In this document: positions 9,385 to 10,584 of the stretch, one piece after another
Layout: each line of letters opens with the position of its first letter
How positions within the stretch are numbered: the first letter of the stretch is position 1
Origin: Theionarchaea archaeon
GTDB taxonomy: Archaea > Methanobacteriota_B > Thermococci > Methanofastidiosales > SZ-28-30
Assembly (NCBI GenBank): GCA_018992685.1
Contig: JACVGT010000031.1
Coordinates: forward strand, 11,631-75,630
Direction of reading: 5' to 3'
DNA length: 64,000 nucleotides
Notes under the pieces: model-generated
What the model was told of the DNA's origin: nothing
Databases searched by the model: none
What the model saw: the letters and a program-made list of their open reading frames with translations, nothing else
Translations under genes and position numbers: made by a program

Positions 9385-9753
9385 TCACCCACTGGACTGC
9401 CCGCTGCCCTTGGGCACATTAGATTCAGACAATTCCGGCAGTTCTGCGTTCTTGAATTGAGTTATGACATCTGAAATGACCCCGCTCCCGTTGTAGATTT
9501 TCATTCCAGCGTATTTCAGAGCACTAAATGCATTGGGGCCAAAGTTGTTCCCGATTACAGCATCCACTTCTTCATTGCTCACAATTTGAGAAGCCTGCAC
9601 ACCTGCACCTTTTCCAGCCCGTTCTCCCAGGTTGGGAACTGTATGAAAGTCCATGGTGTCAGTATCTACAATCAAGAAGTATCTGCATCGTCCAAAACGG
9701 GGATCAACTGCAGCTTCCAGAGTTTGATCAGTAGCGGAAATAGCTATTTTAAT
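9385..9753 (-). CDS. ORP/NifX-domain protein in frame with mrp, apparent ATT start
   Basis: Translation from 9753 gives a full NifX-family domain of 122 residues: IKIAISATDQTLEAAVDPRFGRC at the N-terminus, then VDAVIGNNFGPNAFSALKYAGMKIY. The conserved first strand and PRFGRC are encoded upstream of the first NTG codon (TTG 9675), so the usual start cannot be right. The codon before 9753 is TAG, the stop of mrp, in the same frame. GGTGAT lies exactly three bases before ATT 9753, the same spacing used by most ATG starts here, so initiation at ATT is favoured. Readthrough of TAG would give an Mrp-ORP fusion like the MrpORP protein of Desulfovibrio. Confidence 0.8.
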   Translation of the reverse strand: MKIAISATDQTLEAAVDPRFGRCRYFLIVDTDTMDFHTVPNLGERAGKGAGVQASQIVSNEEVDAVIGNNFGPNAFSALKYAGMKIYNGSGVISDVITQFKNAELPELSESNVPKGSGQSSG

Positions 9754-10584
9754 CTAATCACCTTCTTTTCTGGTGTTTTCTTCCACCTGTTTCTCAATGG
9801 TGCTCACAACATCACCAAAAGCCTGAGACAGAGAGGTGTTACAGAGCACGAAAGGTGTCCCTTCATCACCACTCTCTGCTATCGCGGTGTCAAGAGGTAT
9901 CTTTCCCAGGAAGGAGACATTCATGTCTGATGCAGCTCTTTCTCCTCCTCCTGATCCAAAGACGTCCACATCCTTTCCACAGTGCGGGCATTGGAAGCCG
10001 CTCATGTTTTCAACAATACCCAAGACAGGCATGTTCAGAATTCTGGCAAAGGTAATGGACTTTCTCACAGAGAGCAAAGCCACGTCCTGGGGAGTGGTAA
10101 CGATTATGACTCCATCAACGTCTGGAATCAACTGGGCAATACTCAGGGGCTCGTCCCCTGTTCCCGGGGGGAGGTCAATAATCAAGTAATCCAGTTCTCC
10201 CCACTGCACCTGCCCCAGAAAATCCTTTACTGCTTTCATCTTTGCAGGGCCCCTCCATATGACAGGCGAGTCTGTGCTGGGCAGCAAGAAGGCCATGGAC
10301 ATGACTTTTACCCGCGGAGGAACAAGAATGGGAATGATTCCTTCCTTGGATAGTTCAGGTGCAGCAGCTGTAATGCCCAGCAGTTTGGGGATGGAAGGCC
10401 CGTGAATGTCACAATCCAGCAATCCTACTGCCTTCCCTCTCACAGAAAGACACAATGCCAGATTGGCTGCTACTGTACTCTTCCCGACTCCGCCCTTTCC
10501 ACTCATTACCAGTATGACAAGCTGGACAGCTTTCAAGTTGTCCTCTATCTCTCTGTCAACAGGGAGGATCTTGCCTGTATTCAT
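9754..10584 (-). CDS. mrp: Mrp/NBP35-family Fe-S cluster carrier ATPase
   Basis: A 276-residue ATPase. The deviant Walker A SGKGGVGKST is at residues 28-37, DCDIHGPSIP follows, IIDLPPGTGDE is the Walker B/switch segment, and the CxxC that binds a bridging [4Fe-4S] cluster at the dimer interface is C199-P-H-C202. Known relatives (ApbC, NBP35) carry Fe-S clusters to target proteins. The ATG overlaps the end of the DUF134 gene by 4 nt (ATGA), and the stop codon TAG directly abuts the ORP-like domain in the same frame. This makes DUF134-mrp-ORP-NifX-DUF5320 one tight operon. Confidence 0.93.
   Translation of the reverse strand: MNTGKILPVDREIEDNLKAVQLVILVMSGKGGVGKSTVAANLALCLSVRGKAVGLLDCDIHGPSIPKLLGITAAAPELSKEGIIPILVPPRVKVMSMAFLLPSTDSPVIWRGPAKMKAVKDFLGQVQWGELDYLIIDLPPGTGDEPLSIAQLIPDVDGVIIVTTPQDVALLSVRKSITFARILNMPVLGIVENMSGFQCPHCGKDVDVFGSGGGERAASDMNVSFLGKIPLDTAIAESGDEGTPFVLCNTSLSQAFGDVVSTIEKQVEENTRKEGD

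Follow-up and report, generated by a model that had tools for sequence, protein, structure and literature searches.

The window analyzed here is a 64,000-nucleotide stretch of contig JACVGT010000031.1 from a Theionarchaea archaeon (assembly GCA_018992685.1), and the genes described in it are on the minus strand. mrp (10584-9754) encodes an Fe-S cluster carrier of 276 amino acids, a P-loop ATPase of the Mrp/NBP35 type (PF10609, 330.7 bits), that starts with ATG and ends with TAG. The 3' end of mrp reads ...AAA GAA GGT GAT TAG and the next codon is ATT. By the reading-frame check, the stop codon is the TAG at 9756-9754. The sequence GGTGAT (9762-9757), within the last mrp codons (..GGT GAT TAG), was assigned as a Shine-Dalgarno sequence based on the spacing preference described below and on the GAGGTGATATAA-ATG found there in relatives. 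Beginning with the ATT at 9753-9751, and in the same frame as mrp, are 122 codons (IKIAISATDQTLEAAVDPRFGRC... onward) that end with TGA at 9387-9385. This frame (9753-9385) encodes a protein of 122 amino acids of the ORP/NifX type (dinitrogenase iron-molybdenum cofactor domain). Read from ATT, the N-terminus would be (M)KIAISATDQTLEAAVDPR. There is no ATG, GTG or TTG in the ORP frame between the TAG and the TTG at 9675-9673 (codon 27), the earliest canonical codon in this frame. Because the Shine-Dalgarno sequence is inside the mrp tail, the stop and the start are side by side. The mrp-orp junction is an ordinary operon junction.

Both proteins were readily recognized. The ORP frame covers the whole PF02579 domain (75.6 bits; cut-off 26.3), in agreement with a preliminary description of this DNA that placed a complete NifX domain directly after the mrp TAG, in the same frame. 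It aligns from residue 2 with the solved ORP 2wfb (52 bits) and, also from residue 2, with MTH1175 1eo1 (57 bits). The frame is intact, it contains VDPRFGRCRYF, and all of the motifs are retained. Mrp carries a deviant Walker A motif (SGKGGVGKST) and a CXXC motif (CPHC), as do proteins of the Mrp/NBP35 type. The C-terminus of Mrp at the TAG falls within a few residues of the natural stop in relatives and, judged from this comparison, the Mrp tail is complete there. An ORP binds a Mo-Cu cluster; this trait of ORPs in the strict sense is putative for the domain described here. The preliminary description also attributed a Mo-Cu cluster to the fused protein MrpORP, but the ORP-like domain of MrpORP has been reported to bind a [3Fe-4S] cluster (PMC6345978).

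The genes around this junction form an orp-type operon in which ORP is a separate gene. Upstream of mrp is a gene for a DUF134 protein with a zinc ribbon (11066-10581; PF02001, 95.5 bits). Downstream of ORP is a second NifX-type gene (9380-9012; PF02579, 77.1 bits) with an ordinary ATG; the sequence GGTGAT-ACC-ATG at 9389-9378 gives this ATG the same spacing as the ORP ATT. It is followed by a DUF5320 gene (9013-8666; PF17253, 87 bits), read from about 9013 with an approximate start, and by genes for two ATPases of the MinD/ParA type that resemble Orp3/Orp4, the first (8460-7630) with an inserted 2x[4Fe-4S] ferredoxin and the second (7633-6776) also with an inserted ferredoxin. The orp operon of Desulfovibrio vulgaris Hildenborough (Orp3/Orp4/Orp5/Orp8/Orp9, MrpORP) similarly has an Mrp-type ATPase, NifX/ORP domains and two MinD-type ATPases with [4Fe-4S] in one cluster (PMC6345978). 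In contrast to that operon, the archaeal operon has Mrp and the ORP domain as separate proteins and contains the DUF134 and DUF5320 genes.

The frame shared by mrp and ORP is not significant when compared with that at other loci. Elsewhere, about one third of neighboring mrp and NifX genes are in the same frame, as chance gives. In an order-level relative (genus g2), mrp ends with KKEVI-stop and GAGGTGATATAA is followed by the ATG of the next gene, which is also in frame. A Bathyarchaeota record reads mrp-TGA-ATG-nifX (L119), and a further record reads TAG-ATG (L098). Comparison of homologous loci, suggested in the preliminary description as a check, thus gave ATG at the codon occupied by ATT, forms with the stop abutting the start (g2, L119 and L098), and one fused form. 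This true Mrp-NifX fusion (L115, with a linker of 23) was the only one among 80 Mrp loci; unfused operons of mrp and NifX, with the genes abutting or overlapping, are the usual state. The locus had also been proposed to be a split version of the MrpORP fusion. This was not supported: TAG separates the domains, unfused operons are usual, and the joined Mrp-X-ORP reading scored 397.9 bits against NF041136 (MrpORP), short of the curated cut-off of 450. In addition, the archaeal ORP domain, unlike the fused type, lacks the CXHFGHCE and CDH motifs, which mark the Di-Nase domain of fused MrpORP (PMC6345978).

Two features point to ATT as the start of the ORP gene: it is at the position of the Met of homologs and it is preceded by a correctly spaced Shine-Dalgarno sequence. 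ATG is found at the codon occupied by ATT in all readable order-level and class-level ORP orthologs. In a wider set, by our count, ATG is used in 26/26 of the NifX genes next to mrp whose start could be clearly read. In 464 kb of the genome, ATG peaks exactly three bases past GGTGAT (38 vs about 7 at other offsets), bearing out the earlier remark that the distance from GGTGAT to ATT is the usual one for ATG. The pattern GGTGATNNNATT occurs 45 times genome-wide and its reversed control 12 times. We do not take this as a general enrichment of ATT: the reversed control is depleted and has TAG in it, and the background is equal when the pattern is counted at other offsets. Since the count for GGTGATNNNATT is about background, ATT starts are rare. 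An early scan of the genome contigs with the ORP protein as query found nothing. The mrp-orp locus is absent from the sister species G001, so the assignment of ATT 9753 rests on analogy and register, not on direct conservation.

We found other candidate near-cognate starts in the same genome (G000) in a screen of 1.26 Mb, with rates taken from about 42% of the genome. Three were confirmed by profiles: pyrE, GAGGTGATTGT-ATC (C14:21886, L295; L296 in G001); biotin carboxylase, GGAGGTGATCAA-ATT, with residues ILEKVLIANRGEIA in place of MFKKVLIANRGEIA; and aIF2-gamma, GGGGTGATCCAG-ATA (C1:237150, L328; L329 in G001 and L332 in G012). The profile register puts the near-cognate codon at residue 1 (alignment 2 to 2 for the carboxylase and 5 to 5 for aIF2-gamma). 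A DUF460-like gene on the minus strand (C1:15434, L368; L369 in G001) has AGGTGATTGA-ATA. At this junction TGA is followed directly by ATA in the same frame, the same type of junction as mrp-orp. A roadblock-like protein appears to start with ATA (three paralogs have ATG), a secreted peptidase-like protein with ACG (a paralog has ATG), and a PrpD-like protein with ACG; the DUF460, roadblock, peptidase and PrpD names are from our own reading of the sequences and not from tools. ATT, ATA, ATC or ACG was found at 10 of 43 strict non-canonical Shine-Dalgarno sites vs 2.9 expected, a rough comparison with partly overlapping rows. By our reading of the list, about 10 of 460 starts led by a Shine-Dalgarno sequence were near-cognate (0/260 in the control; Fisher P 0.017). 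That is, near-cognate codons look like about 2% of such starts. The control was 400 kb of presumed Thermococcus-like DNA, in which none of the 260 Shine-Dalgarno starts was a genuine near-cognate start. Four weak candidates were rejected: C3(+)195551 ATA, C1(-)267819 ATT, C15(+)114165 ATT, and an ATT in L205.

Three side observations concern this genome. The apparent ACG starts at C6:67955 and C5:19618 have strong Shine-Dalgarno sequences, and one of these two genes encodes a signal peptide and has a paralog that starts with ATG. The roadblock-like protein (124 amino acids) has at least 7 close paralogs in the 42% of the genome that was sampled (L172, L161, L163, L240, L238 and L274). In addition, GGTGATCCCATT recurs about 70-80 bases from the ends of contigs C2, C3, C6, C23 and C27, in an identical context (GCAGAAGGTGATCCCATTGGA) at the ends read (C2, C3 and C6). 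The recurrence of this sequence and its context at contig ends suggests that the assembly is interrupted by a repeated element.

The unusual codons were conserved in the sister species. We compared four orthologs (82-96% protein identity) between this genome and the separate assembly of G001. All four had the same non-canonical codon in both species (pyrE ATC, carboxylase ATT, aIF2-gamma ATA and DUF460-like TGA-ATA), and the codons near these starts differed. In this genome, these four codons have the Shine-Dalgarno sequence and the spacing seen at the ORP ATT. Neither species has a canonical in-frame start upstream of pyrE or of the DUF460-like gene. For the carboxylase, the ATG at -18, the GTG at -24 and an internal TTG in this genome are all missing from G001; a distant TTG at -28 is present in both. 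For aIF2-gamma, both species have a GTG three codons upstream, inside the Shine-Dalgarno sequence, which makes this case weaker when taken alone. aIF2-gamma has ATA again in G012, which belongs to another family of the order; there it is behind AAGGGTGATAAT, with 42 open codons upstream and no canonical start among them. In a small sample of 124 ortholog start pairs, which were mainly ATG/ATG, there was no near-cognate pair beyond those chosen. Because the unusual codons were kept and the alternative canonical starts were not, independent sequencing errors are very unlikely. Based on conservation in an independent assembly, we infer that near-cognate starts are real in this genus, in what looks like low-frequency initiation at such codons. 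It is possible, although doubtful, that start-codon selection is relaxed throughout this archaeal order, with AUA, AUU, AUC and ACG as regular minor starts and aIF2-gamma, the carrier of the initiator tRNA, itself made from a conserved AUA, in which case stringency could feed back on the supply of aIF2.

Three other explanations of the mrp-orp junction were considered. The preliminary description had offered readthrough of the TAG, by pyrrolysine or another suppressor, to make an Mrp-ORP fusion protein. The two genes are in one frame, a fused MrpORP is known elsewhere (NF041136; PMC6345978), and L115 has a fused reading. However, relatives of this Mrp stop naturally at the same point, the joined reading was below the MrpORP cut-off, and TAG ends 334 of 1074 sampled genes (31%), an ordinary stop as the preliminary description had also noted. 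The genome search for pyl genes that it had proposed did not find the pyrrolysine set (PylS, PylB and a tRNA with a CUA anticodon) in this genome, which is about 91% complete: there were weak matches under the cut-off to PylS (30/178 bits) and PylB (25.5/348 bits), and no tRNA with a CTA anticodon was among the part of the tRNAs that was read. A 'tcta' tRNA reported by ARAGORN, which might have been taken for a suppressor, is actually an intron-bearing tRNA-Arg(TCT). We consider readthrough highly improbable.

If the TAG is a stop, translation might instead begin at TTG 9675, the earliest canonical codon in the ORP frame, and yield a shortened ORP. This is about equally improbable. With such a start, 26 conserved residues are missing, among them the FGRC motif and the first strand (as had been pointed out before), the family score is 67 bits instead of 112, and there is no GGAGGTGAT-like sequence at start spacing before this TTG. 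The other explanation is that the T of ATT is an error of sequencing or assembly, or a recent start-loss mutation, so that an ordinary ATG is, or once was, the start of the gene. ATT and ATG differ by a single base, all relatives have ATG at the start of ORP, and the sequence is from a draft assembly with no sister copy of the locus. On the other hand, the ORP frame is intact with its motifs, and other near-cognate starts of this genome were kept in an independent assembly. An error or mutation seems unlikely, but less so than readthrough or the TTG start. Of the interpretation offered in the preliminary description, initiation at ATT is favored by the ATG of relatives, the ideal spacing and the cases found across the genus, and the parts concerning readthrough and a split fusion were not supported. 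Based on sequence comparisons, we infer that ORP is a separate gene that very probably starts at AUU 9753 with initiator Met-tRNA, helped by the Shine-Dalgarno sequence and probably by reinitiation, and that this is a near-cognate start of the kind that the genus has conserved in other genes.

Initiation at this AUU could work as follows. Ribosomes that finish mrp would halt at the UAG while GGUGAU is still close to the anti-Shine-Dalgarno sequence. GGUGAU, in the mrp tail, would help initiation at the AUU directly downstream of the UAG. Shine-Dalgarno pairing positions the 30S subunit, and aIF1 normally protects against initiation at codons other than AUG (PMC6237735). Termination-reinitiation at the abutting UAG probably contributes, in which case ORP synthesis would be coupled to that of mrp; archaea are known to re-initiate at abutting genes, with a strong dependence on the distance (PMC10666635). 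The ORP start would then belong to a small set of near-cognate codons (AUU, AUC, AUA and perhaps ACG) that the genus uses and conserves. We speculate that the weak codon may set a low ratio of ORP to Mrp.

Common gene finders take only ATG, GTG and TTG, so genes with near-cognate starts are truncated or lost; in the case of ORP, the annotation would begin at TTG 9675 or the gene would be overlooked. In our full-text search of the literature, which was limited and largely without subscription journals, no description of a set of AUN starts conserved within an archaeal genus came up. Conserved archaeal AUU, AUC and AUA starts, including that of an initiation-factor gene, would allow cheap tests of start-codon strictness.

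The starts described here resemble several known cases. In Escherichia coli, infC (encoding IF3) and pcnB have AUU start codons. As in those genes, an AUN near-cognate start is behind a Shine-Dalgarno sequence; here, in contrast, the host is an archaeon, several genes would be involved, and AUA and AUC would be used as well. If aIF2-gamma does start at AUA, it would be an archaeal parallel to the AUU-started infC. The mrp-orp junction is similar to gene pairs of Haloferax and E. coli that overlap or abut and undergo termination-reinitiation, in which the downstream start coincides with the upstream stop or is no more than a few bases away. It differs in its near-cognate start; the study of those pairs names ATT only as a possible rare start (PMC10666635). 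An archaeal likeness is the Asgard tubulin AtubA, for which a conserved first strand and a ribosome-binding site likewise point to ATT (PMC13394414). AtubA is a single gene, whereas the codons described here are in several genes and are conserved across two species.
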